Below the pieces are notes generated by a model, which was not told the origin of the DNA, ran no database searches, and worked only from the letters and a program-made list of their open reading frames with translations. Made by a program: the position numbers and the translations under genes. From assembly GCF_029854705.2 (NCBI RefSeq), contig NZ_CP139035.1:1116001-1180000 (forward strand): 64,000 nucleotides of DNA. The letters run 5' to 3'. This document shows, in pieces, positions 34,647 to 58,602 of the stretch (position 1 is its first letter; each line of letters opens with the position of its first letter). The stretch is from Akkermansia sp. N21116 (GTDB taxonomy: Bacteria > Verrucomicrobiota > Verrucomicrobiia > Verrucomicrobiales > Akkermansiaceae).

Positions 34647-35873
34647 ATGACTCCACGATACACACTCCACCATCAGGTAAGGCGACTGGATGGAACACTC
34701 TGCGGCAATGACAGGAAGTATTCGACCGGGGACATTCTGTTCTCAGACAGAAGGAAGCGAATCGTTCTGGGAGAATCTATTGCGGAAGGCGGCGAAGGTT
34801 CCGTCTTTGCTGCCCATGCAGCATCGGCATCGCCACTCGTTGCCAAACTCTATCATCCGAACCAACGGACACGTTGGCGCGAGCAGAAGCTTCAGCGGAT
34901 GTGTTCCCGCCCGATACGGTCTCCGTGCGTCGCATGGCCGCGTGAGATTTTGTACGACGAGCTGCGGCGTTTTGTCGGCGTACTGATGCCCCGGGAGGAC
35001 GGTGTTCCGCTCGGGGCTTTTGCGTTTCATGCAGAGCTGCTGAAGAAGCAGTTCCCTTCATGGAACCGTTACGATCTGACCAGGCTATGTCTGAACTTGT
35101 CGGAATCAGTCCATACGCTGCACCGTTACGGTATCGTTCTGGGCGATCTGCATCCCGGTAATGTGATGGTTTCTCCCGATGGCACCGTCTGTTGGGTTGA
35201 TGCCGACAGTTTCCAGATCGAAGATTATCCCTGTTCGGTTGGCACAGAACGGTTCCGAGCACCGGAGCTTCGCGATAATTACGGAAACTTCCTCCGTACC
35301 CGGAGCCACGATACCTACGCCCTGTCCGTCCTGCTATCCATGACATTGACTTTCGGCCTGTCTCCCTTTGCCCGGCAAGGTAGTGGAGAAGACATGCAGG
35401 AAGCCGTCAGGAAGGGAGTACTGCCGTATCCGTTTGCTTCGTACAAACCGCCGCCGGGAATTTACCCGCCCGATACGCCCGGACGCTATGTCTGGTCGTA
35501 TCTCCTCCGCAAGCTCCGCGATGCCCTCGGTCATAACCTCACCTGTGTCCAGCGTCGCGATTTGCGTCCACGCGCCATGCCGGGGTATCTGGCGCGTTGT
35601 TTGCAGCAATACCTCAGGGATATGGAGCCGGGAGGCAGAAGGGATCATCCCATGTACCGGGATCTTCTGCATGACCGGCCCTGTCCGCCCCACAGTCTGT
35701 TGGCGCAGATGACACCGAACATCTGCACGGACTGCGGTATTCTGTTCCGGGAAGCTCCTGACGACATCGCACGGCGTTTACGGCAATCTCATGCCCGTCC
35801 CCTGTGCAGGCTCTGCATCAGACGTCGCAGTGCGTTGAATCAGGCATTCCTGAATACAACCATCAACCATTAA
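34647..35873 (+). CDS. protein-kinase-fold protein with C-terminal zinc ribbon
   Basis: This encodes 408 residues. Kinase features: Gly-rich GEGSVFAA with Lys67 (LVAKLYHP), a catalytic loop GDLHPGNV with Asp167 and Asn172, and a metal motif VDADS with Asp185 in place of DFG. It resembles the bacterial kinases found with TerY-type vWA proteins. The C-terminal 70 residues carry two CxxC pairs (CTDCGILF, CRLC), a zinc ribbon. It is GC-rich and precedes a vWA gene by 11 bases, forming a two-gene operon. Cytoplasmic. Substrate unknown, the vWA protein being the obvious candidate. Confidence 0.82.
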   Translation: MTPRYTLHHQVRRLDGTLCGNDRKYSTGDILFSDRRKRIVLGESIAEGGEGSVFAAHAASASPLVAKLYHPNQRTRWREQKLQRMCSRPIRSPCVAWPREILYDELRRFVGVLMPREDGVPLGAFAFHAELLKKQFPSWNRYDLTRLCLNLSESVHTLHRYGIVLGDLHPGNVMVSPDGTVCWVDADSFQIEDYPCSVGTERFRAPELRDNYGNFLRTRSHDTYALSVLLSMTLTFGLSPFARQGSGEDMQEAVRKGVLPYPFASYKPPPGIYPPDTPGRYVWSYLLRKLRDALGHNLTCVQRRDLRPRAMPGYLARCLQQYLRDMEPGGRRDHPMYRDLLHDRPCPPHSLLAQMTPNICTDCGILFREAPDDIARRLRQSHARPLCRLCIRRRSALNQAFLNTTINH

Positions 35874-35884
35874 TTTGAATAACC

Positions 35885-36679
35885 ATGTCTATATCATCAT
35901 CGACACAACCAAACAAACAGGAACAGCTCGCCGCCATGCGCGAGTTCAGCAACAACACCAACGCCCGGCTTCCCGTTCTCTTCCTGCTGGATGCCAGCAG
36001 CAGTATGAACGGCATTGTCCGGGGCGACAACCAACACATCCTCCGCCAGGAGCATTCTGACGGGATCAACTGGAATATCGTCACGGGAGACAATATCGTC
36101 ACCCGGATGGACGAACTCAATACCGGGTTCCAGCGGTTCGTCAGCGATATCCTCGCCGATCCTCTGGCGAAGCTGGCCGCCGATGTAGCGGTGATCACAT
36201 TCGCCCGGACAACGACGACGGTGAAAGAATTCGGTCCGATCCGGGAATCAGACACAGGCCTGAAGATCTCCACGTCACAGGAGAATGAAACGCTCCTGGG
36301 CGAAGCTGTCGAGCTGGCTCTGACTGAACTCGATAGGCGCAAACGTACCTACCGGAAACACGGAGTGGAATACTACCAACCGTGGCTCGTCGTGATGACA
36401 GACGGAGTACCGACCAGCGCCCGGCACCGGGAGCTGGAGGAACGATTGAAGGAACTGACGGCTGCCCGCAAGCTCAGCGTGTTCGTCTTCGGTATCGGCC
36501 GCGCTGATCTGTCGGAGCTTTCCTGCATCAGCCCGGGGCGTCCTCCCATGCAGGTCAATGATCAGAAGTTCCCGGAACTGTTCGCATGGCTGAGCCGTAG
36601 CGTCCATATGGTCAGCATGTCCATGCCGGGCGACGGGGTATCGTTGACTCCTCCCCCCGAAGATGTGTGGCAGGTATAG
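35885..36679 (+). CDS. vWA-domain protein (TerY-like)
   Basis: This encodes 264 residues that are mostly one von Willebrand A domain. The metal-ion-dependent adhesion site is DASSS (Asp36, Ser38, Ser40) in FLLDASSSMNG, followed by a conserved Thr/Asp region and WLVVMTDGVPT. There is no signal peptide, so it is cytoplasmic. TerY proteins of this kind are found with a kinase and a PP2C phosphatase in tellurite/stress and phage-defence-related loci; here the kinase is upstream but no phosphatase is present. An intrinsic terminator follows. Confidence 0.85.
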   Translation: MSISSSTQPNKQEQLAAMREFSNNTNARLPVLFLLDASSSMNGIVRGDNQHILRQEHSDGINWNIVTGDNIVTRMDELNTGFQRFVSDILADPLAKLAADVAVITFARTTTTVKEFGPIRESDTGLKISTSQENETLLGEAVELALTELDRRKRTYRKHGVEYYQPWLVVMTDGVPTSARHRELEERLKELTAARKLSVFVFGIGRADLSELSCISPGRPPMQVNDQKFPELFAWLSRSVHMVSMSMPGDGVSLTPPPEDVWQV

Positions 36680-38306: not shown

Positions 38307-39893
38307 TCATTCTTGAGAAACGGGTAATTTCTGTGCCCGTTTCTGGGCCATGTTCATCAGGAAGCTCATTTGATCCGTGGAGTCCTTACTGATAACATCA
38401 TTCAATTTCCAGAAAAATTCTGCGAGTTGAGCATCATTGCATTCTTTCTGAATTCTGTCTTCCATGGCAGGAAGCAATAGTTCCTCCTCCCTGGTTTCAG
38501 CCGGATAGGTGGCAATGACATCATCAGTGATATTTGACAGGGGCAGTCGGACTTCGTTGAGATACCCCTTATTCAGTTCATCACAGGTTGCCCCCCATTT
38601 TTTCATCAATGCATCATATCTCTTCCCGATGATATCGAGGTAATCCATGGCGTCATTGTAGGTCGCAAGGGACAGAATCTCCTTTTCCAGCTCCTGTTTC
38701 AGTTCATCCATCTCCTTGAGGCATTGGCGTTGCGCTGTCTCGGCCTTCCGTTCGTATTCCTTAACTTTGCCAAGGTAGTCTTCCAGTTTGTAGTAGGCTC
38801 GGATTTTTTTGTACAGAGCATCCTTGAATTCCTGAGATGGCCTGGCTGCCCATTGTTCGGACGGATGGGATGCAGAAGAAGGAACGTCAGTCCGGGACGA
38901 CTGTTGCCATAGCCATACGCCGGCAAGTACAAGAATGATGACGGCAACAGTGACTGCGGAGGAAACGGTTTTTCTGGTAGCTCCCGTTTTCCGTAGCCCC
39001 CTGGGTTTTCCCTGATCCAGCCATTCCTTCCACTGTCCCGCTGTCTGGCAACGCTCTTCAGGCTTGAGCCGCAGATTCCGGTCAATAGATGCCAGTAATT
39101 CCCGAGGCCATGGTTGGGAAAATGTCATGCCTGAGAGTGGGACGACATCATCCTGCATCAACCGCCTGTCAGCCGGTTCAGCGGGTGTTCCGGTAATCAG
39201 CTCGTACCAGGTTGCGGCCAATGCATAAAAGTCCGTCCATGAACCGATTTTGCCTTTTCCAGTGATTTGTTCCGGGGAGGCGTAGGCGTACGAGAATTCT
39301 CCCTGAGTGATCGTACAGGTCACTTCCGGCTTGTTGAGCGCCGCCCCGAAGTCGATCAGAACCGGTAATCCCCGTTCGTCAAAAAGGATGTTGCCGGGCT
39401 TGATGTCGCGATGAGAAATCCCCTTGCCATGGAGATAGTCCAGCCCATCCAGAAGGAGCAGGAGCCACTCGACGGTTTGTTCCGTGGTCATCGTACTGTT
39501 CCCGTTGGCTACTTCGTCCATGCGTTCCCGCAGCGAACCGCCTTCCAACCACGGCATCACATAGAAGATGCTTCCATGGGACTCGAAGACGTCGTAGACC
39601 CGGACGATACGTTCATGGTTCAGGAAAGCCAGCGTCTGCGCCTCCTTGCGGAGAGTATCCATCGCGGCCCGGTACACCTGCTGTGATGCGTGCGGAAGGG
39701 GGATAATGGCGCTGGTATCCGGATCGCGGCTACATAGCCCCAACGGAAAACATTCCTTGAGAACGATGTTGCGCCTGAGCTGGCTGTCCCAGGCAATGTA
39801 GGTGATGCCGAAACCTCCCTGTCCCAGTACCTTGAGCAACTTGTAATTGCCCAGCAGAGTTCCCGGAGGCAATGCGAAGCCGGAGGCGTCCAT
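38307..39893 (-). CDS. transmembrane Ser/Thr protein kinase with extracytoplasmic helical domain
   Basis: From the ATG ending at 39893 this is 528 residues. The kinase domain is complete: glycine loop GQGGFG (24-29), Lys46, HRDIKPGN with Asp163 and Asn168, DFG at 181-183 and ASPEQ. One transmembrane helix (about 310-330) is followed by a 200-residue helical region, probably periplasmic, which could sense a signal. A TTG at 39905 is an alternative start. The HTH gene ends 4 bases before this start, so they form an operon. The opposite strand carries ankyrin and GYF genes that may be substrates; that is inference. Confidence 0.93.
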   Translation of the reverse strand: MDASGFALPPGTLLGNYKLLKVLGQGGFGITYIAWDSQLRRNIVLKECFPLGLCSRDPDTSAIIPLPHASQQVYRAAMDTLRKEAQTLAFLNHERIVRVYDVFESHGSIFYVMPWLEGGSLRERMDEVANGNSTMTTEQTVEWLLLLLDGLDYLHGKGISHRDIKPGNILFDERGLPVLIDFGAALNKPEVTCTITQGEFSYAYASPEQITGKGKIGSWTDFYALAATWYELITGTPAEPADRRLMQDDVVPLSGMTFSQPWPRELLASIDRNLRLKPEERCQTAGQWKEWLDQGKPRGLRKTGATRKTVSSAVTVAVIILVLAGVWLWQQSSRTDVPSSASHPSEQWAARPSQEFKDALYKKIRAYYKLEDYLGKVKEYERKAETAQRQCLKEMDELKQELEKEILSLATYNDAMDYLDIIGKRYDALMKKWGATCDELNKGYLNEVRLPLSNITDDVIATYPAETREEELLLPAMEDRIQKECNDAQLAEFFWKLNDVISKDSTDQMSFLMNMAQKRAQKLPVSQE

Positions 39894-39897
39894 ACAA

Positions 39898-40254
39898 TCA
39901 GGCAAGCGGGGGATTGCCGAGCCTCGGCACTTCGTCGGCCAGGAACTCCTTCAGGGTCTTACCCTGGGAGAAGGCTTTTTTCTCAAGAACCTTGCGAGTA
40001 TCCGGATCGAGCTTCAGGGTAATCAACGTCTCTTCTTCCACCTGCACCCGGCTCGGGAGAGTCATCGGGAGCTGTTTGATGAGTTCCCGGATGATGTGTT
40101 CCTTGGCGGCGGGAATGGGCTTTTTCGCCATCCAGTTGCGGACGGTCGCTTCCGTCACGAAACATCGTTCGGCGAGCCATGCGTAGTCAAAGTTGTTGGC
40201 TTTGAGCCACAGCTTGACGTTCATTTTCAGCTCATCCTGGTTCACTCCTGCCAT
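39898..40254 (-). CDS. small HTH protein upstream of kinase
   Basis: This encodes 118 residues from the ATG ending at 40254. Residues 10-50 (LKANNFDYAWLAERCFVTEA, then TVRNWMAKKPIP) look like a lambda-repressor-type helix-turn-helix; the C-terminal half is a Lys/Glu-rich segment (DPDTRKVLEKKAFSQGKTL) that resembles a ribbon-helix-helix or degron-like tail. It precedes the kinase gene by 4 bases and may regulate it or be its target. A longer upstream start is possible but adds no domain. Confidence 0.75.
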   Translation of the reverse strand: MAGVNQDELKMNVKLWLKANNFDYAWLAERCFVTEATVRNWMAKKPIPAAKEHIIRELIKQLPMTLPSRVQVEEETLITLKLDPDTRKVLEKKAFSQGKTLKEFLADEVPRLGNPPLA

Positions 40255-40384
40255 GTTTCGGAATGTAGCACTATCGCTCAGGAATGGCAATACGGTTATA
40301 CAGCATCCCTATTTTTGAGATTAAACTGAGATTTTCATGTTGACTAAAATCGTAAAAAGGAGATATACAGGCAATGTAAACGAG

Positions 40385-40927
40385 ATGCCGGCAATGAAAA
40401 GTATCATCCAGTTCACCTGTCCCCAATGCGGAGGCCATCAACTGATGCTCGTCGAACGAGCCATGCACCGTTCTATCGTCCAGACTCTGGAAACGGACCG
40501 ACAGGGAGAATTGACTGTCGGTCACAAGGTTCTGGTGGACGATTTGTGCGGGGAACCATTGGGGTATCGCTGTGCGGACTGCCGTCATCCGGATTGCCAT
40601 GGTCATGATTCATCGGAAGGGTTTCAGTGGCATTCTCTGGAGGAGGTGCAAAGCGCCGGGGGTATTGTCTGGCCGGACGGGATGGAAACGGTAGAGCACA
40701 GGTGCATGGTTTGTTTCCCCGACGGGAAGATGACGCCTGTGATCGTCGAGGTCGTTCATCCCGGAACTCTCACCGAGAAGGAACGCCGCACCGTTCTGGA
40801 ACGTGAACGAGCAGCGCATGGCATCCTGATCAGCCAGTCGGATTCCGGTATCCGGACATTGTCCTGCCGCAACTGGAAGCGGGTCAAAAGGCATATTCTT
40901 CAATCAATCAACACATCTATTTTATGA
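40385..40927 (+). CDS. zinc-ribbon protein of unknown role
   Basis: This is a Cys-rich cytoplasmic protein of about 180 residues with four Cys pairs or clusters: CPQCGG, CADCRHPDCHGHD, CMVC and a late Cys. This suggests a double zinc ribbon. The start is uncertain: an in-frame ATG at 40337 extends it by 16 residues, while the good ribosome site AAGGAG (40357-40362) points to an ATG at 40374 that is followed at once by TAA. It overlaps the next gene by 4 bases (ATGA), so it heads the long plus-strand cluster. Confidence 0.75.
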   Translation: MPAMKSIIQFTCPQCGGHQLMLVERAMHRSIVQTLETDRQGELTVGHKVLVDDLCGEPLGYRCADCRHPDCHGHDSSEGFQWHSLEEVQSAGGIVWPDGMETVEHRCMVCFPDGKMTPVIVEVVHPGTLTEKERRTVLERERAAHGILISQSDSGIRTLSCRNWKRVKRHILQSINTSIL

Positions 40928-41331
40928 CTATGACTTCCATATTGGCAGAAATCAATCCTTATGTTTTCATAAGAGGCGCGCAGGAATTGCAAAAAACAGA
41001 AACAGGAAGAGAGATTCTGTTTACATTGCTCTCCTCCGGATTGTTTGGTTTTGCAATCTTTCTGGCGCTCTACTGGTTGTCCGAGCATAAAGAGCCGGCG
41101 GCAATCAAGGACTTCAAGACGATTGCCATTGTATTCGCCGTGGTTGATCTCATCCTTGCCGTGATAGACTCCGGTTTTCTCGCCTTGCTGGAATTGGCAG
41201 CCATTGTCCTGGTTGCTCATAAAGTTTTGAATTTCACACTGGGCAAATCATTCGGCGTATTGGGCATCAGTATAGGGATTTCTCTTGTCGGAGGTTTTCT
41301 GGCAGCAGTGATTTTGGGTGTCGAGATATAA
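40924..41331 (+). CDS. multi-TM protein with module shared by neighbours
   Basis: This encodes 135 residues with about four transmembrane helices and no soluble domain. The last 100 residues match the C-terminal membrane domains of the next two proteins: compare AIVFAVVDLILAVID with GLAVFDMLGN and NFTLGKSFGVLGISI with NFQCSWKRSFTILGLML two genes downstream. It appears to be the minimal form of that membrane module. It starts within the stop of the zinc-ribbon gene. Function unknown. Confidence 0.75.
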   Translation: MTMTSILAEINPYVFIRGAQELQKTETGREILFTLLSSGLFGFAIFLALYWLSEHKEPAAIKDFKTIAIVFAVVDLILAVIDSGFLALLELAAIVLVAHKVLNFTLGKSFGVLGISIGISLVGGFLAAVILGVEI

Positions 41332-41346
41332 ACGCGATAAGGGATA

Positions 41347-42507
41347 ATGGGAGCAAGAGTCCACAGACGAAAAATTCGATTTCCCCGGGTCATTATTCTG
41401 ATGGCAGTCTTGTTGTGTCTCTGCAGTACCTACAATGCTTCCTCACAGATATACAGCGGAGGCGGGGATATAAGAGTTAATGAAGGATGGGGAGACACTT
41501 TGGGCCCCCACTACACGATCGATGAATTGTCCAGATTCATGTATCTTGCTGTATCGAAAGGCCAGGACAAAGAGGTTCTAAGACTGATACAGGAAGGCGC
41601 TGATATTAACGCCAGAGACCAGGGAGGCAGAACATTCCTTATATGGGCTTCGATGGGAGGACATGAGAGAATTGCCAGGATATTGATTGATGCCGGGGCA
41701 GATGTTCATGCGAAAGATGCAAAAGGTGCAACAGCTCTCATGCTGGCCGCCGCATGGGGATATGATACCATCGTTCAGATGTTGATTCTGGCAGGGGCAG
41801 ATGTTAACGCAACAAGTAGCGGACATGAAATCACTTCTCTTCTGGCAGCTTCGCTCAAAGGTCATGCTGAAATTGTAAAGATGCTTATTCATGCAGGAGC
41901 CGACATTAACGTCAAAGGATTCGAAGAAACAACTCCCCTGATGATAGCTTCGGAAAACGGTCATGAACAAGTAGTCCGAATACTGATTGATGCGGGAGCT
42001 CATCTTGAAGCACAAAATGAATTTGGCAAGACTGCCCTCAAATTGGCTTCGGATAAAGATCACGATAATATCGTGAAAATATTGAAAAAAGCAGGCGCCA
42101 GAGGAGACTGGCTATGGATAAGCCTTTTGTACAGCATAATCCTGGGAGTGGTAATGTTTGTAGTTATTGCCGTGTTTTCAGCTGTCGGGAAAAATGGTGG
42201 ATACAAAAGACTTATTCTATGGAGTGCCGGGGTAACAGTAGCTGACATGTGCTGCAATTTAACATTTGGTGGCTGGATACCGTATTTTATCCATGAATTC
42301 AGGTTCTGGGGAATCCTTGACAGATCACTCAATTTCCCTTGGGGTGTGTGGTATTCATTCTTAATGATAAGCCTTGGAATTCTGGTCGAACTTCGGACAG
42401 CTTGCGACTTTAAATGGTCCTGGGGACGTTCTTACGTTACTCTTTTCAGTATTTTGGCTCTAACTCTTTTCGCATCTTATCATGCAGGCAACATTCTGCT
42501 CGGATGA
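41347..42507 (+). CDS. exported ankyrin-repeat protein with C-terminal membrane module
   Basis: This encodes 386 residues. An N-terminal signal or anchor (residues 14-34) precedes about six ankyrin repeats (residues 60-255; repeated ADVHAKDAKGATALMLAA-like units), then four transmembrane helices (from about 258). The C-terminal module carries RLILWSAGVTVADMCCN and WSWGRSYVTLFSILAL, like the two flanking proteins. The repeats should lie in the periplasm, as for a protein-binding or shielding surface. It starts 16 bases after the previous gene. Role unknown. Confidence 0.85.
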   Translation: MGARVHRRKIRFPRVIILMAVLLCLCSTYNASSQIYSGGGDIRVNEGWGDTLGPHYTIDELSRFMYLAVSKGQDKEVLRLIQEGADINARDQGGRTFLIWASMGGHERIARILIDAGADVHAKDAKGATALMLAAAWGYDTIVQMLILAGADVNATSSGHEITSLLAASLKGHAEIVKMLIHAGADINVKGFEETTPLMIASENGHEQVVRILIDAGAHLEAQNEFGKTALKLASDKDHDNIVKILKKAGARGDWLWISLLYSIILGVVMFVVIAVFSAVGKNGGYKRLILWSAGVTVADMCCNLTFGGWIPYFIHEFRFWGILDRSLNFPWGVWYSFLMISLGILVELRTACDFKWSWGRSYVTLFSILALTLFASYHAGNILLG

Positions 42508-42532
42508 AATTAACATAAATACAAACATAACA

Positions 42533-43303
42533 ATGAATACAGTACGCCATAGACAAAGACTTGGGATAAAAAGGAGCATTCTTACTGCTCTGTTGATGGG
42601 ATTTTGCTGCCTTTTTTATACCCCTGAGGCGTTCTCTGATGAACCAAGCTCCCCACCGCAGATGAATGGTCTGGACGCAGATATGGCTAAAGGTGTCGCT
42701 TTAGCGAAGAAGCGCTATGGGGATCAATTACGTGAGCAGTATATGGGAGGCACTAATACGGCCAAGGAATATGCTATAGGAGCTCTCCGAATGGAGAACG
42801 CTATTGCTGAAGCCGAAGGTAAAGGCGACACTGGCCGTGCTAACGTGTTACGTCAGCAATTGGCGGCTGTTCAGAGCTCAAATCAGCGTAGTATTGCTGC
42901 ATTACAACAGAAGGCTGACGCAGGAGATATTGAGGCACGAAGAGAACTGGATGAATACTACGCATTCATGAAAACCGTGGAAGGCTCTTCTTCTGCGGGT
43001 TCGTTTCCATTCCTGATCAGCATCATATCCGGTCTGTTGTTATACGGGTATATTGTGCTGCTTTCTCCCAAGGATGCTAGAATAAATCGGAAAACATTGA
43101 TCACGTGGTGTGTTGGCCTAGCCGTCTTCGATATGCTTGGCAATTGGGTGAATCAATCATGGCTCTTTCTTTTCGTTGAAATCCTGGTCATCCTTGTAGT
43201 TGTCCGAAACTTCCAATGCTCATGGAAACGTTCCTTTACTATCCTGGGACTCATGCTTGTCTCCATACTCATTCTGGGAGGGCTGTTGCCATTATTCTTC
43301 TGA
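42533..43303 (+). CDS. secreted helical domain plus membrane module
   Basis: From the ATG at 42533 this is 256 residues. A signal-like helix (residues 15-31) is followed by an Ala/Glu/Gln-rich helical domain with SEL1-like spacing (NVLRQQLAAVQSSNQ, then KADAGDIEARRELDEY), then about three to four transmembrane helices. The membrane part (RKTLITWCVGLAVFDMLGNW, then NFQCSWKRSFTILGLML) is the module seen in the two preceding genes. The 5' end overlaps the end of the ankyrin gene region if an earlier ATG were used. Function unknown. Confidence 0.78.
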   Translation: MNTVRHRQRLGIKRSILTALLMGFCCLFYTPEAFSDEPSSPPQMNGLDADMAKGVALAKKRYGDQLREQYMGGTNTAKEYAIGALRMENAIAEAEGKGDTGRANVLRQQLAAVQSSNQRSIAALQQKADAGDIEARRELDEYYAFMKTVEGSSSAGSFPFLISIISGLLLYGYIVLLSPKDARINRKTLITWCVGLAVFDMLGNWVNQSWLFLFVEILVILVVVRNFQCSWKRSFTILGLMLVSILILGGLLPLFF

Positions 43304-43342
43304 TGCGTTTTCTCTCGTTCGGTTCATGAATCCACGCCTTTG

Positions 43343-44140
43343 ATGCTTATGATTTCCTATTACCTTGTCCGACCGGACAGCACACAGGAAGGACCTTTTT
43401 CCGAAGATGAACTAAAAGGGTTCTATCATCAGCGGACTCTGCCTCCCGGATCTTACGTTTGGACAGAAGGATGGGATCAATGGCGCCCCTGTGAAGACGC
43501 CTTTGAATGGTTTATTTCCAGCGCCAAGTTGCCGCCTCTTCCTCCACATTTCGGTTCAGAAGGTACAGCCTCCCATTCAGACACATCGCCTGCTCATGCT
43601 GAAAAACACGAGAAAGCCTTGTCTTCAGATGAAATGAAGGCATCGACAACAAGGGAATACAAAACCTTGTCAGATTGGATTCAGAACCAGGAAATTCTGA
43701 ATCAGATTCATCAGTGGGGATTGCGGGCATTACAGGTGAAAGGACAAACATACGGGATAAACCATTATACGGTCTGTGTTATTGGCCTGATGCTGATGGT
43801 CGTCATCCTTTCGTTTGGTTCGGAGAAAACCGCTGTTCCCCAGTATGAATCAAATGCGTGGATACAGAACAATACGGGCGGAGGCGACAATTCGGACTAT
43901 CAGTTGCAACAAATGGTTCATGCGGCCAATAAATTTTATGAAAACAATGCCATGGAAATCTGCAAAAGATGCGGAGGAAGCGGGGTCGTGACGCCGGGTA
44001 GTGGAAGGGCTCTCTGGAATCGAGCGGAATCAAATCAATACCGCATGCCTTGTCCGCAATGTGGCGGAGCTGGCGAAGTACCACGATCCCGGAATATCGG
44101 ACGTTTCAATGACGGTACTTATCAGGGAAGCGGCTGGTAA
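43343..44140 (+). CDS. GYF_2-domain protein with zinc-binding C terminus
   Basis: This encodes about 265 residues. Residues 1-55 are a GYF_2 (DUF4339) domain: YYLVRPDSTQEGPFSEDE then SYVWTEGWDQWRPCEDAF, a fold thought to bind proline-rich peptides. One transmembrane helix lies near residues 140-157. The tail carries CKRCGGSGVV and CPQCGGAGEV, the DnaJ-type zinc motif. ATG at 43343 is taken; 43349 is also possible. The next gene, 14 bases later, starts with an almost identical GYF_2 domain, so these two are recent partial paralogs. Confidence 0.85.
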   Translation: MLMISYYLVRPDSTQEGPFSEDELKGFYHQRTLPPGSYVWTEGWDQWRPCEDAFEWFISSAKLPPLPPHFGSEGTASHSDTSPAHAEKHEKALSSDEMKASTTREYKTLSDWIQNQEILNQIHQWGLRALQVKGQTYGINHYTVCVIGLMLMVVILSFGSEKTAVPQYESNAWIQNNTGGGDNSDYQLQQMVHAANKFYENNAMEICKRCGGSGVVTPGSGRALWNRAESNQYRMPCPQCGGAGEVPRSRNIGRFNDGTYQGSGW

Positions 44141-44154: not shown

Positions 44155-44862
44155 ATGAACGATTATCATATAACACGACCAGACGGCACCCAGGAAGGTC
44201 CGTTCTCGGAGGAAGAGCTGGAGGAACTTTACCGGGACAGGAAGCTTCCGCAAGGATCTCTGGTATGGACACCCGGCTGGGCTACGTGGAAAGCTTGTGA
44301 AGATGCGTTCTCCTGGTATGCGCCTCCTCCACCGTTGCCCGGTGCACTGAACAATGGTCGGGGAAGGAAAATATCTCCCTTCCTTCAGGATGCATGGTTA
44401 TATATGGCAATAGGATTTGGGATAATTATTCTTATTTTTACTATCGCTGCTTTTTGGCCTAAAATTAAACTAGGGCCTTTAGCAATAATGGGATTTGTTT
44501 TTATATTCAAAGGCTTTGGATCTTTCCGGAAGCATTCCATGGCGAAAGGAGAAAAAACAAAAGCTACGCCTGTTCGTTCCGTCCATACTCATGGGCGACA
44601 TAAAAGCAGTATCATTGCAGGTTTGCTGGCTATCTTCCTGTGGCCTGTTGGCGCTCATAAATTCTACAATGGAAGCTGGGGGTGGGGGATCATATATATT
44701 GTGATCATTGTTGCTGCGTGGGTTAACCCTAATCCGAATCTTGGAATTTTATGGATTTCCGAATTCATCCTTGCTCTCATTCAAGGGATATGGTGGCTGG
44801 CAAACCCGGTTTACTATCATAGAAAGTATAACGAAACGTCTCCTTCTCCTATGAAGTGGTAA
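44155..44862 (+). CDS. GYF_2 plus TM2-domain membrane protein
   Basis: This encodes 235 residues. The GYF_2 domain (HITRPDGTQEGPFSEEELEE, then SLVWTPGWATWKACEDAFSW) is very close to that of the gene before it. About two transmembrane helices follow at 80-125, then a TM2 domain with the usual short helical hairpin (GLLAIFLWPVGAHKFYNGSW, then GIIYIVIIVAAW). TM2 domains are found with stress and secretion proteins. It is in the same plus-strand run and likely sits in the inner membrane next to the other modules. Confidence 0.85.
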   Translation: MNDYHITRPDGTQEGPFSEEELEELYRDRKLPQGSLVWTPGWATWKACEDAFSWYAPPPPLPGALNNGRGRKISPFLQDAWLYMAIGFGIIILIFTIAAFWPKIKLGPLAIMGFVFIFKGFGSFRKHSMAKGEKTKATPVRSVHTHGRHKSSIIAGLLAIFLWPVGAHKFYNGSWGWGIIYIVIIVAAWVNPNPNLGILWISEFILALIQGIWWLANPVYYHRKYNETSPSPMKW

Positions 44863-44893: not shown

Positions 44894-45880
44894 ATGAAAT
44901 CGAAGATATATCAAATAGGTCACGTTGTCGCTCTTGCGCTGATTTCCGCAGTACTCCTTTCCTCATGTGGAAAAACCGATAACCCCGAAGCCAATAAAAG
45001 AGATTCGAATGGGAATACGGTTCTTATGAAGGCTGTCAAAGAGGGGAACGTTGATTGGGTGACGGAACTGATCAAAGACGGAGCACGTGTAGATGCGAAA
45101 GGGCAAGGAGGGATAACTGCCCTCATGTGGGCTGCTGCTCTTGGGCATGCGGACTGCGTGAAAGCATTGATAGCCGCCGGAGCGGATATCAATGCGAAAG
45201 AAGATAAGGATGGTAGTACAGCTCTTATGGTAGCTGTTCTTAAGGGGCATACGGACTGCGTAAAAGCATTGATAGCTGCCGGAGCGGATATCAATGCGAA
45301 AGAAGATAAGAAGGGGTATACGGCGTTGATGTTTGCTGTTGGTGAGGACAATACGGATTGTGTAAAAGCATTGCTGAAAGCTGGAGCGAATGTGAATGTG
45401 AAAGCCAAAAAGGAGCGAACAGCTCTTATGATAGCAGTTCGTAAGAAGGATTCTGAAAGTGTGAAAACATTGATAGATGCCGGAGCGGATGTTAACGCTA
45501 AGGACAAAAATGGAATGACGGCTCTCTGGATGGCTGATTCTGACTGTGTGAAGATACTGATATCTGCCGGGGCGAATGTGAACGCAAAGAATAAGGAGGG
45601 TTGGACGGCTCTCATGGATGCTACTGAGGATGGGCATGTTGAAAGAGTAAAAGTACTGCTGGAAGTTGGCGCAGATGCGAACGCGAAGACTAAGGATAGG
45701 GAAACGGCGCTCATGATAGCTGCTGCTCTTGGTCATGCGGACTGCATGAAAGTATTGTTAGCAGCCGGGGCAGACATAACCGTGAAGGATAAGGATGGGG
45801 AAACGGCTCTTATGAAAGCTATTAGATATAAAAACGCAAATTGCGAGAAGTTACTACAGGAATCGGTATCCAGAAAGTAG
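44894..45880 (+). CDS. ankyrin-repeat lipoprotein
   Basis: This encodes 328 residues. The N terminus is a lipoprotein signal with lipobox LSSC (about residue 26). The rest is about nine ankyrin repeats of 33-34 residues, with the consensus DGxTALMxAVxxGHxDCVKALI then AAGADINAKE. Two neighbouring repeats are almost identical at DNA level (45151-45208 and 45253-45310), showing recent internal duplication. It should be anchored in the outer or inner membrane with the repeats exposed. Last gene of the GYF/ankyrin run. Confidence 0.9.
   Translation: MKSKIYQIGHVVALALISAVLLSSCGKTDNPEANKRDSNGNTVLMKAVKEGNVDWVTELIKDGARVDAKGQGGITALMWAAALGHADCVKALIAAGADINAKEDKDGSTALMVAVLKGHTDCVKALIAAGADINAKEDKKGYTALMFAVGEDNTDCVKALLKAGANVNVKAKKERTALMIAVRKKDSESVKTLIDAGADVNAKDKNGMTALWMADSDCVKILISAGANVNAKNKEGWTALMDATEDGHVERVKVLLEVGADANAKTKDRETALMIAAALGHADCMKVLLAAGADITVKDKDGETALMKAIRYKNANCEKLLQESVSRK
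45151..45310 (+). repeat. near-identical ankyrin-unit DNA repeat
   Basis: A 58-base segment beginning GGACTGCGT at 45151 recurs at 45253 with about two changes, offset by 102 bases (exactly 34 codons, one ankyrin repeat). This shows recent tandem duplication inside the lipoprotein gene. Confidence 0.8.
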
Positions 45881-45965: not shown

Positions 45966-46301
45966 ATGAAAGACAAACCAATCAAACAACCTTGGTCCCG
46001 GAGTGCAAAGATGACGGTGTGGGTGCTGGGTATCGTATTCAGCTTTGTGACGTTTCTTGCATTTGCGTATGTTCCTCCATGCAAAGAATGTATGCGTAGG
46101 GACGCAGAGAGTCATACCACATGGCCGATACCGAATCCAAGTTGCGTGCCCGTGGCGGCGATGCTTGCAGATACTCTAAAAGACCAAAGGACCAAGCATC
46201 CGAAGGATTTTCCTCCTCCTAAGACACAGGATGAGGAGTTTATCAAAGACATCCTGGATGCGGACGATACGGTCGAGTATCTGAAATCTGTGGGATATTA
46301 A
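45966..46301 (+). CDS. small single-TM protein
   Basis: This encodes 111 residues: a basic start (KDKPIKQPWSRSAKMT), one transmembrane helix (about 16-36) and a Cys/Pro-bearing tail (YVPPCKEC, then an acidic end). The N terminus recurs as KNKRPWPRSAKVMVWVL in the decayed gene at 46553, so this is one of a small family. A strong terminator follows at 46307. It may be a separate unit from the ankyrin lipoprotein, 85 bases upstream. Confidence 0.68.
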   Translation: MKDKPIKQPWSRSAKMTVWVLGIVFSFVTFLAFAYVPPCKECMRRDAESHTTWPIPNPSCVPVAAMLADTLKDQRTKHPKDFPPPKTQDEEFIKDILDADDTVEYLKSVGY

Positions 46302-46552: not shown

Positions 46553-47079
46553 ATGAAGAATAAACGACCGTGGCCCCGGAGTGCCAAGGTGATGGTATGG
46601 GTACTGTGTATCTTGCTCTCTCTTGCTAGTACATATATTGCACTTGATGCTATGATATGATAGCCGGTTACTTCATGCGTTAAATGAAGAGTCGAAGCCA
46701 GCAGATACTGTCGAAGTATCTGCCGAGAAGGAGCCAGAAGTACCGTACACTACCGGATTCCCGGTAGCGTTCCTATCTCGCATGAGTCCTGAACTTGAGA
46801 AAAAATATTCGTAGACAGGCCTGATGATGAAAGGTTGACGCCACCGTATGCACGTTTTCGACAGCGGCCTAACGATGATCATATGTATATTCTCAGAAAT
46901 GGGAAGCCGGGAGGATTCTTACAGAAAATGGAGCCGACCTTCTGGAGGCATACCTGCAAGGGTATAATGACGCAACGACAAGCTCTTGGCGTTACGGCTT
47001 TCAGCGCATTACAGCAGGGCTCATGTATCAGGAATCACAGATCTTAAAGAGTTCAAATAAACTTCTGTTGGACGGCTAG
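46553..47079 (+). pseudogene. multiply frameshifted small-membrane-protein paralog
   Basis: The start codes KNKRPWPRSAKVMVWVLCIL, a paralog of the single-TM protein at 45966, then hits TGA at 46658. The next frame continues without a start (LLHALNEESKPADTVEVSAE) to TAG at 46812. Adding one A in the A-run at 46800 links it to IFVDRPDDERLTPPYARF in another frame, and a last shift near 46920 leads to ENGADLLEAYLQGYND and a TAG at 47077. The separate pieces are protein-like and in order, so this is one gene broken by at least three frameshifts. It sits inside the cargo zone; function of the intact form is unknown. Confidence 0.6.
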
Positions 47080-48162: not shown

Positions 48163-48246
48163 CGTCATATATACCAGACACAGGGATTTACCTGCCTGTC
48201 ATCCTTCACAAAGCCGTCATGGTCCCATACCGGGCATGGCGGCTTT
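48163..48246 (+). promoter_or_regulatory. leader with hairpin before backbone gene
   Basis: CGTCATATAT (48163-48172) is followed 37 bases on by a stem-loop: AAAGCCGTCATG (48210-48221) with CATGGCGGCTTT (48235-48246), one mismatch. The same layout precedes the DUF932 gene at 60843-60918. Likely a promoter plus a 5' hairpin that controls the element's backbone genes. Nothing else is visible in 47958-48283. Confidence 0.45.
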
Positions 48247-48283
48247 ACTGCATCCACCCATCAACAACGAAAGAACCACCACC

Positions 48284-48865
48284 ATGGCTATCAAACTCAT
48301 CGCCAACTATAGCAAACGCCTCGGACTGCCGGGGTATTCGTCCCACCAGTTCGAGGTATCCATCGAAACCGAAATCAGCAACACATCAGAGTTGCCATTC
48401 GAGACAGAACGGCTCTATGGTTCCCTTCAGGCCGCCGTCGATGCCCAGATCCAACAGGTAGGATTTGTTCCTGACGAACATTACGGCTCACAGGTCACGC
48501 AAAGGCCTGCCCTTGGGGCTTCCTGCTCACAGATGATATCCACATCATCCGTGAGGCAAACACCTCCTGCAAGCGTTCCTGAGAGCTCTATTGCAACTGT
48601 TCCTGCATGGAAGTGCTCGGAGAAGCAACAGTCTCTCATCCTGGAACTGGCCGGAAAATCCGGGCTGGATGATTCTGCCCTGAACGAACTGGCTACCCGG
48701 AGATTCAACAAGTCCGTTGCCATGCTCAACCGCATGGAAGCTTCCGGGCTGATCGATGAACTGATGAACCGCTCCGGTTCTTCATCCAAACGTTCGGCAT
48801 CAGGCAGGAACAACTACACCCGCCGTCCCGCTACGGCCTATGCCGGTAACTCCAACCCGTACTGA
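48284..48865 (+). CDS. mobile-element protein of unknown function
   Basis: This encodes 193 residues from the ATG at 48284. The first 60 residues (IKLIANYSKRLGLPGYSSHQ onward) resemble a small plasmid/ICE-type domain with a beta-rich start; the middle is variable, and the C-terminal part (ALNELATRRFNKSVAMLNRM) is helical, followed by a basic Ser/Arg/Gly tail. It is GC-rich like the other backbone genes and precedes the nuclease gene by 2 bases, so they are an operon. No firm family. Confidence 0.72.
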   Translation: MAIKLIANYSKRLGLPGYSSHQFEVSIETEISNTSELPFETERLYGSLQAAVDAQIQQVGFVPDEHYGSQVTQRPALGASCSQMISTSSVRQTPPASVPESSIATVPAWKCSEKQQSLILELAGKSGLDDSALNELATRRFNKSVAMLNRMEASGLIDELMNRSGSSSKRSASGRNNYTRRPATAYAGNSNPY

Positions 48866-48867
48866 CC

Positions 48868-49737
48868 ATGATCGCTCCCGTACCCCGCTCCATACGTTCA
48901 TCCTCCCTGCACCCGGCTATCGCATTGGTGAAGAAGGTTCCTTCGGAGGCTTCTTCTCCCTCTGCCGTACGCCCGGACTACCTGTCTCCCTCCTCGGTCA
49001 AATCGTATCTGTCGTGTTCCCTGCGCTTCTTTTTCGAGAGGGTAGTGCAGATACGGAAACCGACGACGGTCGCTCTACATGTCGGCAAGGCTATCCATAC
49101 CACACTCCAGTCCTTCAACCTCGCCCGATGGCGGGGAGAGGACAGTAGTGAGACGGCCATGGAAGAAGCCTTCTCCGCCCACTTTCTGGAGCTGGAGAAG
49201 ACGGAAGGCCCGGTGAACTACGCCGACGAAGAAACGAGACAGAAGGTACGTTCCTGCGCCTGGAACACGGTCAAGGCCTACATGACCTCCGGCGAGGTTG
49301 CTTCACAGATGCCCCTGGGAGTGGAAGTCGGTTTATCGGCTACCATCCCCGGCTTGTCGGTTCCCGTGCGAGGCGTCATCGATCTCGTCCAGCACGATCT
49401 GACGGCAGTGGACTACAAATCCACTTCCGCCAAACCTGACAACGGGCATGCCGCCTTTGATCACGAGCTTCAACTGGTCACCTACCAGATGATGATCGAA
49501 GAAGCCACGGGAGACACGCCTCCGTCGCTGGATCTGATCTACCTGGTCAAGACGAAGACCCCTCAGGTGATCCGGGTCAAGACTCCCCCAGCTGACGAAC
49601 AGCGCAAGCGGCGCATCGCCGACCTGTACAGGATCGCCTACGAAGGCATCACCACCGAGCGTTTCTATCCCCAGCCTGGGATGCAATGTTCCTGGTGTCA
49701 GTACAGAAAGGAATGTTCCGGGTGGTGTAAGAAGTGA
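48868..49737 (+). CDS. RecB/Cas4-like PD-(D/E)XK nuclease with Fe-S cluster
   Basis: This encodes 289 residues. Motifs: SVKSYLSCSLRFFFE near the N terminus with Cys50, HVGKAIH (His77), Glu153, GVID with Asp172, DYK with Asp182 and Lys184, and the QLVTYQ helix. The C-terminal CSWCQYRKECSGWC gives Cys274, 277 and 283, so with Cys50 a 4Fe-4S cluster as in Cas4 and AddB. It should be a single-strand exonuclease or end-processing nuclease. There is no CRISPR array or cas gene here, so the role is likely element recombination or defence. A second, truncated copy is at 58127. Confidence 0.9.
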   Translation: MIAPVPRSIRSSSLHPAIALVKKVPSEASSPSAVRPDYLSPSSVKSYLSCSLRFFFERVVQIRKPTTVALHVGKAIHTTLQSFNLARWRGEDSSETAMEEAFSAHFLELEKTEGPVNYADEETRQKVRSCAWNTVKAYMTSGEVASQMPLGVEVGLSATIPGLSVPVRGVIDLVQHDLTAVDYKSTSAKPDNGHAAFDHELQLVTYQMMIEEATGDTPPSLDLIYLVKTKTPQVIRVKTPPADEQRKRRIADLYRIAYEGITTERFYPQPGMQCSWCQYRKECSGWCKK

Positions 49738-49785
49738 GAGGAAGTGGTTATTCAGAAGCCTGCCGTTAGGATGGCTTCTTTTTAA
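49391..49785 (+). repeat. direct repeat (copy 1): 3' half of nuclease gene plus terminator
   Basis: From CAGCACGATCTGACGG to the terminator this block recurs at 58177-58570, close to 88% identical by eye. The two copies bracket cargo with a lower GC content. They mark either a tandem duplication or an insertion between homologous copies. Confidence 0.85.
49754..49784 (+). terminator. rho-independent terminator after nuclease gene
   Basis: AGAAGCC and GGCTTCT form the stem around TGCCGTTAGGAT, followed by TTTTTAA. The same terminator follows the truncated copy at 58541. Confidence 0.75.
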
Positions 49786-50132
49786 CTCTTGTTTATTCGA
49801 AAAAATGAATCGGATACCTGAATAAATTCAGTCTCGGGCTTTCGACCTACCCGATGTTTCATATTGGCTGCAAAACTTAGACAGTCATCCATCAGGATAA
49901 TCTGAAGCAGTAATTTCGCATGCTGTCCATATTTCAGACTCTTCCCAAAGCATGTTTCGTTGCGATAGTATATCATACTTGTGGGACAACTGAACCAGTT
50001 GAAGGATTTATTCAAACATGTTGACCACTGTTCATTCATTCTGAAACCAGCCAGGATTTGATTCAAGTGGAATACTCTACGGGTGGGCAAATACCGCCTT
50101 TGCATAAAAGATGAAAAGCAGCTATCAAGCAT
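49782..50132 (-). CDS. possible small AT-rich protein
   Basis: The frame encodes 116 residues. The second half (NEQWSTCLNKSFNWFSCPTS onward, then KYGQHAKLLLQIILMDDCLS) has protein-like make-up with several cysteines, but no signal peptide, motif or clear ribosome site. It sits in the AT-rich gap after the nuclease terminator and may be a decaying gene. Confidence 0.3.
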   Translation of the reverse strand: MLDSCFSSFMQRRYLPTRRVFHLNQILAGFRMNEQWSTCLNKSFNWFSCPTSMIYYRNETCFGKSLKYGQHAKLLLQIILMDDCLSFAANMKHRVGRKPETEFIQVSDSFFRINKS

Positions 50133-50539
50133 CTAACTCCAATTTATGTGATTTACAATCAACTCTCAACATGGCATAGATCGGGTCAAGGTTGTGGCAG
50201 GATTTGGTAAGCAACCCACGGATTTTTTGCTATATTTGTTAGATATACAAGTGTTTGATTTAGAACTAATATTTTTAATATTATTGCAATTATCCAGATT
50301 TTCCCTCATACTTCGGATGTACTCGAGAGACCGGGAGTGGCGCAACCTCTCCAAGTGTTATAGAAAGGAGTTAAGGCGGATAAAGCTGTAATCATATCAA
50401 ATCGTTTATATAAACTGGTCGGATGATTAATATTGATCCGGTTGTTCGATGAATGAGTTTAACAGACTTTGTCATTTCCTGCATGGTTGTGCCGAGTCAA
50501 TCAACCAGACAGGAATATTTATGAGTGTAACGCAGATAA
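50133..50539. other. AT-rich gap without a supported gene
   Basis: About 400 bases with one short plus-strand frame (50194-50391) that is hydrophobic at first and then basic but lacks a ribosome site. I see no tRNA or terminator here. It probably holds the promoter of the GNAT-IbrA-IbrB operon. Confidence 0.35.
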
Positions 50540-50950
50540 ATGATTATGGACATAATACGATTGAATGGAAAAGATAAACTTCTGTATGATCTTGTTGCAC
50601 CTCTGGCCATGAACCCTGCCGTTATCAGACAGAATAATGGTTATCCGTTTAAAACATCCCAGCAACATGTATGGTATATAGCGGTAAGTGATGATTCCGT
50701 CGTTGGCTTTATGCCGTTAAAAAAGGGTTCTGCCGGCATGCTTATTGATAATTATTACATAAGAGGCGACGATAGTAATATAATCACCGGGTTGGTGGAA
50801 AAAACAGTATGCGACTTTGGTTCTTCGGGGACTTTGGCGGCAATGGTATTCAAGCGGCATGTGGAAATTTTTCGCAATCTCTATTTTCTGTCCGTTGTCG
50901 AATTGAAGAATTACGACAAGATGGAATATCGCAGGTTATTGAAAGCGTAA
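50540..50950 (+). CDS. GNAT-like protein of IbrA/IbrB module
   Basis: This encodes 136 residues. The centre (WYIAVSDDSVVGFMPLKKGS) and the later IITGLVEKTVCDFGSSGTLA look like strands 2-4 and the acetyl-CoA helix of a small GNAT fold, with a late NLYFLSVVELKNYDKMEY matching the last strands. An in-frame ATG lies at 50546. Its stop overlaps the IbrA start by one base (TAATG), so the two are translationally coupled. Acetyltransferase call is from pattern only. Confidence 0.68.
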   Translation: MIMDIIRLNGKDKLLYDLVAPLAMNPAVIRQNNGYPFKTSQQHVWYIAVSDDSVVGFMPLKKGSAGMLIDNYYIRGDDSNIITGLVEKTVCDFGSSGTLAAMVFKRHVEIFRNLYFLSVVELKNYDKMEYRRLLKA

Positions 50951-52254
50951 TGACCCGGCAACCGAATGTTTATGAAGCAGTCCAAGGCAGGTTGAAAGTA
51001 ATCTTCGACCATTTCGATTATGTGTATGTTTCTTTTTCCGGAGGCAAGGATAGTGGTTTGTTGCTGAATCTTTGCATTGATTATATTCGCCGCAATGTAC
51101 CGGGACGAAAACTTGGCGTCTTTCATATGGATTATGAGGTACAGTATCGTCAAACGACGGATTATGTGCTCAGGACCTTGGAAAAAAACAGAGATATCCT
51201 TGATGTCTATCATTGCTGCGTGCCGTTCAAGGTTTCTACTTGCACATCCATGTTCCAGACGTATTGGAGGCCGTGGGAGAAAAACAAACAGCCTCTTTGG
51301 GTTCGCAACATGCCGGAGGGTTGCATGAAAGCGGATGATTTCGATTTTTTTTCGGATGATTTGTGGGACTATGATTTTCAGTATCTTTTTGCTCCGTGGC
51401 TGAAGAGCCGGAAAAAATGTCATCGAGTATGTGCCCTGATAGGCATACGCACACAGGAGAGTTTCAACCGCTGGAGAGCCATACATAGCAGCAAGAATTA
51501 CAGGCGCTTCCAGGACCATAAATGGACTCACAAACTGGGTTGCAACATATATAACGCCTATCCTCTTTATGACTGGAAAACTTCTGATGTATGGATAGCC
51601 AATGGCAGATTCCGCTGGGACTATAATCGGTTGTACGATCTCTATTATCAGGCGGGAGTTCCTCTCCATCGGCAAAGGGTAGCAAGCCCGTTTATCTCGC
51701 AAGCCATCTCCGCCCTCTCCCTTTACCGTGCCATTGACCCGGATATGTGGGGGAAAATGATTGGCCGGGTCAACGGCGTGAATTTTGCAGGCATTTACGG
51801 AAAAACCAAGGCAATGGGGTGGAAATCCATCACTTGCCCCGAAGGGTTCTCCTGGAAGCAGTATATGTATTTCCTTCTTGATACGCTTCCTGAAAAAGTA
51901 CGTGGTAATTATCTGAGGAAGCTGGAAGTCAGCATGCGTTTTTGGAAAAAACGTGGCGGATGTCTGAGCCGGACAACGATTAGAAAGCTAAAAGATGCCG
52001 GAGTAAAATTCACGGTGGGGCGTTCAACTGCCTACCATACGGATAAGAAACCCGTCAGAATGGAGTACCTTGACGACATTGATATTGCAGAGTTCAAAGA
52101 AATTCCTACGTACAAACGAATGTGCATTTGCATCATCAAGAATGACCACGTGTGCAAGTATATGGGTTTTTCTCCGACCAAGGAAGAAAAAGACAGGAGA
52201 GAGAAAATCATGGAAAAGTACAAATCCCTGGAAAAATGGAAAAAGCGTTTGTAA
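50950..52254 (+). CDS. ibrA: IbrA-like PAPS-reductase-family protein (DUF3440)
   Basis: This encodes 434 residues. The PP-loop SGGKDS (residues 30-35) in YVSFSGGKDSGLLLNL marks an ATP-pyrophosphatase of the PAPS reductase/adenylation fold. The rest matches the IbrA group: FHMDYEVQYRQTTDYV, the GIRTQESFNRW segment, and the WKTSDVWIAN motif. IbrA with IbrB controls expression of eib genes in E. coli prophage and the pair is often found on phages and islands. The 3' end overlaps the ibrB-like gene by 19 bases. The likely chemistry is nucleotide-dependent transfer or modification, not proven. Confidence 0.88.
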   Translation: MTRQPNVYEAVQGRLKVIFDHFDYVYVSFSGGKDSGLLLNLCIDYIRRNVPGRKLGVFHMDYEVQYRQTTDYVLRTLEKNRDILDVYHCCVPFKVSTCTSMFQTYWRPWEKNKQPLWVRNMPEGCMKADDFDFFSDDLWDYDFQYLFAPWLKSRKKCHRVCALIGIRTQESFNRWRAIHSSKNYRRFQDHKWTHKLGCNIYNAYPLYDWKTSDVWIANGRFRWDYNRLYDLYYQAGVPLHRQRVASPFISQAISALSLYRAIDPDMWGKMIGRVNGVNFAGIYGKTKAMGWKSITCPEGFSWKQYMYFLLDTLPEKVRGNYLRKLEVSMRFWKKRGGCLSRTTIRKLKDAGVKFTVGRSTAYHTDKKPVRMEYLDDIDIAEFKEIPTYKRMCICIIKNDHVCKYMGFSPTKEEKDRREKIMEKYKSLEKWKKRL

Positions 52255-52763
52255 GCCCTGTTTATCAAGTTATTGCCGTTCCGGTAGAAAAGGTTGTGGC
52301 GAATACCTACAATCCCAATATCGTGGCACCGCCTGAAATGAAACTATTGGAACTCTCGATATGGGAGGACGGCTACACCATGCCCTGCGTATGCTATTAC
52401 CTGAAAGACCGGGATCAGTATGAACTGGTGGACGGATATCATCGTTATCTGGTCATGAAAACCTCGGAGAGAATCTACCGGCGAGAAAAAGGGCTGCTTC
52501 CCGTTTCCGTCATTAATAAGGACATTTCCGAACGTATGGCTTCTACGATACGCCATAACAGAGCTCGAGGTACTCATTCCGTAGAATTGATGAGCCATAT
52601 TGTTTCCGAACTTGCCAAGGCAGGGATGTCCGATGCGTGGATCATGAATCATATAGGGATGGACAAGGATGAATTGTTGCGCCTGAAACAGGTTTCCGGA
52701 CTGGCAGAATTATTTGCCGATAAGGAATTCAGCAAATCGGAAACCTGGATGGAAGATTATTGA
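52236..52763 (+). CDS. ibrB: IbrB-like ParB-domain protein
   Basis: This encodes 175 residues from the ATG at 52236. The N-terminal ParB/Srx-like nuclease fold shows VPVEKVVANTYNPNIV, the core YELVDGYHRYLV and STIRHNRARGTHS, which in ParB would be the CTP/NTP-binding region. A C-terminal helix-turn-helix-like stretch (DAWIMNHIGMDKDELLRLKQ) follows. IbrB partners IbrA. It overlaps the ibrA end by 19 bases, a strong sign of co-translation. Confidence 0.87.
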   Translation: MEKAFVSPVYQVIAVPVEKVVANTYNPNIVAPPEMKLLELSIWEDGYTMPCVCYYLKDRDQYELVDGYHRYLVMKTSERIYRREKGLLPVSVINKDISERMASTIRHNRARGTHSVELMSHIVSELAKAGMSDAWIMNHIGMDKDELLRLKQVSGLAELFADKEFSKSETWMEDY

Positions 52764-52961
52764 TCTATTTCCAGAATGGAGAAATCTTTCTGAAATCGTC
52801 CATTCCAAACCGGTGTCGCACAATATTGTACAGTTAATCTTCTTACCGAATGATTAAAAATCTATTTGCTTTTCAAGATCAACTAATTAGCAACTTGTTA
52901 TTCTTTTGACAGAATATCTTTTACCAGATAAAATATTTGATTATATCGCAGACATAAATCA

Positions 52962-52993
52962 ACAGTCGTACATGGTAATGTACGACTGTTGAA
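52962..52993 (-). terminator. 14-base perfect hairpin after secreted-protein operon
   Basis: CAACAGTCGTACAT and ATGTACGACTGTTG are exact complements around GGTA. It lies 29 bases past the last stop of the minus-strand operon. The T-run is weak, so it may be a terminator or a regulatory hairpin. The gap 52764-53021 holds nothing else I can name. Confidence 0.6.
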
Positions 52994-53021
52994 ATCCTCC
53001 ATAAGAATGATATGAGGTCAA

Positions 53022-53384
53022 TTAATCCACAGAGGAACCCTGAATATTAGTTGAGGCTTCTTTACAGGTTAATGTTCCTTGATTGTTAATGATAGATTCA
53101 GGATCCAATTTTGTAACATCAGTTTTGACTGTATATGATTGACCTCCAGCATTTGCCGATCCGGAAAACGGAGTTCCAGAAAGCGACCAATCATGTGCTT
53201 TCGCTGGCTCTTCGGGGGTTATTTGCCCATTTTTACCCGTTATAAAAGCAGGGACATAGGAGAAGATTTTACCTTTTGGTCCAACAGATATTGCTCCACC
53301 TCCTGATGCTCCTGGGGCTATCGTTCCAGCATAGGATGTTGAACAAGTTATCAGAATGGCAAGTATATAGGCATATTTTTTCAT
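53022..53384 (-). CDS. small secreted Gly/Ser-rich protein
   Basis: This encodes 120 residues. Residues 1-19 form a clean signal peptide (KKYAYILAILITCSTSYA). The mature part has APGASGGGAISVGPKGKI and a Gly/Ser/Thr/Asn-rich rest with one Cys near the end (LTCKEAS). It looks like a small surface or matrix protein. It is the last gene of the operon behind the beta-propeller gene, 11 bases away. Not recognised. Confidence 0.68.
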   Translation of the reverse strand: MKKYAYILAILITCSTSYAGTIAPGASGGGAISVGPKGKIFSYVPAFITGKNGQITPEEPAKAHDWSLSGTPFSGSANAGGQSYTVKTDVTKLDPESIINNQGTLTCKEASTNIQGSSVD

Positions 53385-53395
53385 TGTGTATAATA

Positions 53396-55918: not shown

Positions 55919-55973
55919 GAAAAGAATTGATAAAATTAAAGTGTTCCGATTTGAAACAATAATATCCAAAGTT

Positions 55974-57704: not shown

Positions 57705-57728
57705 GAACAAATTTATTTAAACAGTAAA

Positions 57729-57757
57729 AAAATATATTCTCTATCGAGAGCTGTCAA
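57729..57757 (-). promoter_or_regulatory. promoter with overlapping operator-like palindrome
   Basis: On the minus strand TTGACA (57757-57752) and TATTTT (57734-57729) are 17 bases apart, a good sigma-70-type promoter for the transglutaminase operon. The spacer contains CTCTCGATAGAGAA, part of the palindrome that recurs inside the gene. Confidence 0.6.
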
Positions 57758-57847
57758 TAATGGAATTACCTACACGTGTATTTTATAGGACATTCTTGAC
57801 AATATCCTACGCCACACCCACGCCTTTACGACATCGGGAAGGGTATC

Positions 57848-58555: not shown

Positions 58556-58570
58556 GGCCGGCTTCTTTTT
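58177..58570 (+). repeat. direct repeat (copy 2): 3' half of nuclease gene plus terminator
   Basis: Second copy of the 49391-49785 block, with the same terminator sequence. Together they bracket the GNAT-IbrA-IbrB and transglutaminase operons. Confidence 0.85.
58541..58570 (+). terminator. rho-independent terminator after truncated nuclease
   Basis: AGAAGCC and GGCTTCT form the stem and are followed by TTTTT. A copy of the terminator at 49754. It also lies just beyond the convergent TcmP gene. Confidence 0.75.
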
Positions 58571-58602
58571 AGATAATTGATATCTGGAAACGACAGGCGG
58601 AG

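Follow-up and report, generated by a model that had tools for sequence, protein, structure and literature searches.

The stretch of DNA analysed here (64,000 nucleotides, hereafter the window) belongs to an Akkermansia genome and possesses three consecutive genes on the plus strand, P1 (40924-41331), P2 (41347-42507) and P3 (42482-43303), whose adjacency and positions are those that a preliminary description of the sequence had given. P1 is a 135-residue open reading frame made of a short variable front and a four-helix transmembrane (TM) module (40999-41313, residues 26-130) that is linked to P3 by profile. A lipobox-type signal (LLSSC), of the kind seen in lipoproteins, is found at the N-terminus of P1 orthologues but not in P1 of the window. 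P2 (386 residues) runs from a signal peptide through ankyrin repeats to a TM module (42106-42504; BLASTP, hhalign and alignment) in which about 28 additional residues separate helix 2 from helix 3. That the front of P2 consists of ankyrin repeats had been proposed and is borne out by Pfam Ank/Ank_2 matches (E 1e-38; Ank at 128.8 bits versus a cut-off of 21.1) over residues ~66-250 (41542-42096), a segment that lies downstream of the N-terminal hydrophobic signal and is predicted to be exported.

P3 was initially called as a 273-residue frame, with its true start probably at 42533, an ATG that is common to all alleles and gives proteins of 256-258 residues (256 in the window, 42533-43303). Its signal peptide (42533-42637) precedes a helical front domain that is predicted to be exported (42638-42940; modelled at pLDDT 72-88) and, after it, a TM module (42992-43297). 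Both P2 and P3 carry a hydrophobic export signal at the N-terminus, and since their fronts follow signal peptides, these fronts probably face the periplasm. In P1, P2 and P3 alike, the basic residues of the module sit in loops 1 and 3, so that by the positive-inside rule these loops would be cytoplasmic, in agreement with exported fronts.

The three genes are part of a longer block with a conserved order: kinase and helix-turn-helix (HTH) gene on one side, then, divergently, CxxC protein, P1, (P2), P3, GYF, GYF/TM2 and ankyrin. On the minus strand are the Ser/Thr kinase (38307-39905; Pfam), with a conserved kinase half and an exported C-terminal half, and the HTH regulator conserved beside it (39898-40290; PHROG transcriptional regulator, 2e-5). 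Divergent from the HTH gene, on the plus strand, is a CxxC-rich, zinc-ribbon-like protein (40337-40927) whose CxxC motifs are visible in the sequence and for which a Pfam search gave no match above cut-off; we refer to these three genes as the hub. Downstream of P3, also on the plus strand, Pfam revealed a GYF_2 protein with one TM helix and an exported DnaJ-like zinc-finger tail (GYF1, 43340-44140), a GYF_2-TM2 membrane protein whose TM2 match is below cut-off (GYF2, 44155-44862) and an ankyrin lipoprotein (44894-45880).

Similarity among the membrane segments of P1, P2 and P3

The preliminary description had all three proteins sharing one multi-TM module, and the profile alignments by hhalign upheld this to different degrees for the three pairs. 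Between P2 and P3 the similarity is far above chance (BLASTP E 2e-5; hhalign E 2.4e-7, probability 93), with the score reached by 0 of 300 column shuffles that keep the hydropathy class of each column and by 0 of 74 unrelated TM segments from the Akkermansia order used as decoys, which argues strongly for a module common to both. For P1 and P3 the values are BLASTP 0.025 and hhalign E 4e-4 to 9e-4 at a probability of only 22-37, while 0-1 of 300 shuffles reached the score, as did none of the 74 decoys with P3 as target and two with P1 as target. P1 and P2 compared directly (hhalign E 0.026; 1/300 shuffles; 1/74 or 3/74 decoys) show a similarity that is not significant by itself and does not establish kinship. 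The decoy null is conservative, because some of the top decoys come from loci that weakly matched the query.

The most convincing evidence for kinship of P1 and P3 comes from reciprocal profile searches, in which P1-only and P2/P3-only alignments with no shared rows were run against whole genomes. With the P2/P3-only profile, P1 was the next match after the family itself and the P2 remnants in two genomes (E 0.28 and 0.54), collinear over positions 6-101; with the P1-only profile, P3 was the next match in all four genomes carrying it (E 0.012-0.024); these genomes have orthologues and hence are not four independent tests. Bridging relatives in Akkermansia, one in genome G058 that matches P1 at 8e-8 and another (x1) that matches P3 at 5e-4, also favour a single family. 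Low-confidence AlphaFold models of P1 (mean pLDDT 49; helices 26-54, 58-83, 86-105 and 111-130) and P3 (mean pLDDT 57; helices 171-194, 203-222, 227-243 and 251-272) each have four helices with similar spacing. Taken together, we consider it moderately supported that P1 carries the module of P3. Matches of P1 to DUF6463 and other Pfam entries were below threshold and were disregarded. PDB sequence and fold searches (the latter at E<=0.001 with a low-confidence model) returned nothing, and the W..[KR]S[FY] motif, searched as a degenerate DNA pattern, occurred little above control.

Across 76 Akkermansia genomes, the family profile (A1) matched in 9, with the matches in G070 and G052 left out as too weak for membership, and P3 was present in 4 of the 76 genomes, each a species. 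Stand-alone P1-like proteins occur in G006, G007 and G058, of which the one in G007 adjoins the same hub. A further divergent P1-type module protein was seen at G006:C71:909-1157 (E 1.2e-4, 159-residue frame). Searches of 288 genomes of the order gave nothing convincing beyond the Akkermansia members, and no relatives were found in phages (P1 as query) or in plasmids and viral contigs (P3 module as query), such that only a few Akkermansia genomes have the family.

P3 and the salt-tolerance protein StlA

Pfam and NCBIfam gave no known domain for P3, and the closest counterpart is one described in the literature. StlA was obtained by Culligan et al. 2013 from a human gut fosmid, SMG25 (JQ269600.1), expressed in E. 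coli MKH13, where it let the host grow better when NaCl or KCl was added, an effect that was abolished by a transposon insertion at residues 136/137 (PMC3861447). Its 257 residues comprise a signal peptide and four TM helices, and its gene lies near those of a Ser/Thr kinase, a 135-residue protein just upstream, a DnaJ zinc finger, DUF4339, TM2 and ankyrin (PMC3861447). P3 appears to correspond to StlA in gene order, size, layout and promoter motifs, a match made to the published description and not to the StlA sequence. From the common ATG it has 256-258 residues versus 257 and is modelled with four helices (AlphaFold), and its neighbours in the window are those listed for stlA (kinase, DnaJ zinc finger, DUF4339, TM2 and ankyrin). 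The predicted stlA promoter motifs printed in PMC3861447, TTGGCT (-35) and TCTTATCAT (-10), recur letter for letter and with the same 21-bp offset ahead of P3 in each of the five copies examined (42454-42483 on the plus strand of the window, within the 3' end of P2), at 79/58 bp before the ATG compared with 77/56 as printed, a difference of 2 bp. Like the window, the StlA locus is an Akkermansia-like, low-GC region with a 135-residue gene upstream, whereas the gene list of the fosmid is without a P2-like gene between that gene and stlA.

The StlA paper found no homologues in genomes, proposed an outer-membrane location and suggested a TspO/MBR fold (PMC3861447); the module in neighbouring genes and the mosaic front that we describe were not reported there. 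We consider an inner-membrane location more likely than an outer one for StlA-like proteins, because the TM segments are helical. P3 resembles TspO/MBR proteins in being a small helical membrane protein, but it is without the Pfam match and has four, not five, TM helices. The front of P3 had been called SEL1-like, of which there remains one half-repeat resembling Sel1-repeat proteins (E ~0.003); the Pfam Sel1 model itself did not match.

Variable fronts and the second copy of the block

This genome carries two copies of the block, separated by ~152 kb, with the second one at G000:C1:1002185-1008670 (L022 4186-10671). There P2 has been lost except for its 3' tail (the last codons), and the same remnant is found in G044. 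Comparing copies of the same gene gave a second sense to the interchangeable fronts of the preliminary description, as the fronts of P3 and P1 differ between copies while the membrane part is near-identical. For P3 of the window and the second copy, nucleotide identity is 100% in the signal peptide, 57% in the front and 96% in the TM module, with synonymous differences at 51/68 in the front versus 10/107 in the flanks (Fisher p 2e-19). Among alleles more widely, the module is 91-96% identical and the fronts 57-68%, with dS >1 or saturated (Fisher p 1e-11 to 2e-19 versus the flanks), and the contrast is also present against G004/G048 and G044. Identity breaks in the alignment at the end of the signal peptide, and P3 is thus shown to be an intragenic mosaic. 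In P1 the front is 51-53% identical to all other alleles and the module 88-92%. The same contrast extends in G044 to the kinase (37% in the exported C-terminal half versus 87% in the conserved half) and to GYF1 (49% in the tail versus 90%), and P2 showed no mosaicism across three genomes. The kinase genes of the two copies in this genome differ by 6-10%, yet the copies have a GYF1 tail that is 100% identical and a GYF2 without synonymous or non-synonymous change in the aligned windows, from which it follows that sequence exchange between the two locus copies is recent.

With 50-71% amino acid identity, the P3 fronts are to be read as alleles of one domain and not as different domains, and for this reason the data are explained equally well by active swapping of fronts and by a polymorphism of long standing whose flanks were homogenised. 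Either history would need recombination that stops at domain borders. One could accordingly regard the front divergence as ordinary, with old alleles of accessory genes whose flanks were homogenised by gene conversion and no functional exchange, a reading to which we give a substantial, minority share of our belief. Few genomes have the locus (P3 in 4 of 76 species), which lies on a lower-GC accessory region and is duplicated here, and GYF1 and GYF2 have already been homogenised between copies, all of which suits such a history; it accounts less readily for homogenised tracts that end at domain borders in several genes and for the diverged parts being the exported ones in P1, P3, the kinase and GYF1.

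Two observations concern other genes near the block. The ankyrin lipoprotein varies in its repeats between copies, with a repeat number that makes it 328 residues here and 451 in L022. Small single-TM proteins (45966-46301 and 46553-46660 in the window; L023 4094-4862; L022 11588-11917) have a similar anchor, K.PW.RSAK.TVWVL, and unrelated tails, possibly following the same rule of a constant anchor with a variable exported end.

The hub, its cargo and the proposed function

The kinase-HTH pair, divergent from the CxxC-rich protein, recurs across Akkermansia genomes (window 38307-40927, loci L097-L123), and homologues of the CxxC protein were found in 32 of 76 of them. What follows the hub varies among the loci examined, and includes DO-GTPases, dynamin-like GTPases, VWA with kinase, Sel1, ankyrin, C39-like, DUF1232 and GYF proteins, which looks like a hub with exchangeable cargo. 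Several of these cargoes resemble the GTPase-centred conflict systems that Kaur et al. 2020 described from verrucomicrobia and further phyla and that include zinc ribbons, GYF + TM proteins and kinases (PMC7159879); the likeness extends to variable components and to DO-GTPases, which adjoin the same hub in other Akkermansia. Genes at the borders of the locus resemble those of mobile elements. These features would suit a block that is itself an anti-phage or kin-discrimination module, in which the hub controls interchangeable cargo and P1-P3 act in the membrane as effectors or receptors, with an arms race diversifying their exported fronts. We rate this as an unlikely but live account: the ten proteins of the window block include no GTPase or GAP1 component by Pfam and no effector domain, PADLOC returned for the block only generic kinase and ankyrin matches plus a sub-convincing PbeC match to P3 (0.006) and nothing specific to a system, and the sole measured phenotype of the family is salt tolerance.

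The surroundings of the block hold further genes of note. Just upstream (34647-36679) a kinase-like protein is followed by a VWA-like one, a pair that is TerY-like by eye and that also stands beside the block in L023, L083 and L125. Further downstream, 48236-61803 is a low-GC, mobile-element-like stretch with, by eye, RecB-like nuclease, PAPS-reductase-like, ParB-like and DUF932-like genes; DUF932 is also on the stlA fosmid (PMC3861447).

Our preferred explanation, whose chances as a whole we judge to be about even, is that a single four-helix inner-membrane module underlies P1, P2 and P3 and makes them paralogues (strongly supported for P2 and P3, moderately for P1), and that they belong to an inner-membrane system linked to the Ser/Thr kinase, in which recombination exchanges the exported parts. 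Loops 1 and 3 of the module, which are basic, would face the cytoplasm and the N-terminal fronts the periplasm, and the three proteins may form a complex with the GYF proteins and the exported kinase half. A variable partner or stress would be encountered by the exported domains and transmitted or buffered by the membrane part, which is constant, such that the assembly might sense or buffer envelope or ion stress, salt tolerance here being taken from StlA in E. coli. We propose homologous recombination as the source of the variation in the exported parts: by way of signal-peptide and membrane segments that are near-identical, it would swap these parts between locus copies and strains, an exchange that selection for variety or for matched partners could drive. 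That the three modules are instead unrelated four-TM tails alike by composition is very improbable, for although P1 and P2 are at chance level against real TM decoys (up to 3/74), P2 and P3 are far above every null, which largely refutes it for that pair, and P1 and P3 are each other's next-best genome matches.

Of the membrane scaffold with interchangeable sensors that had been suggested, the scaffold with differing fronts stands, with the same difference in strength between P2/P3 and P1, whereas a role of the fronts as sensors is putative. Sensing and ion-stress protection are likewise putative roles of P1-P3. The salt phenotype of StlA was obtained in a surrogate host and for an allele that differs from P3 of the window, and the function could be stress protection or conflict. 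A doubtful further possibility is a diversifying recognition system, in which membrane proteins and a Ser/Thr kinase would have their exported cassettes recombined, partly as matched sets, to give strain-specific specificity; if so, StlA would be one variable receptor and not a dedicated salt-tolerance gene.

Within the open-access papers searched, the sharing of the module and the exchangeable exported fronts appear to be new, in a finding that is partly known through StlA. Described as an orphan without homologues, StlA now has an StlA-like gene in Akkermansia genomes, adjoined by two paralogues on the same membrane module and linked to a kinase/regulator hub whose cargo varies. Should the exchange of exported cassettes be real, the block would make the evolution of modular receptors tractable in a major gut commensal.
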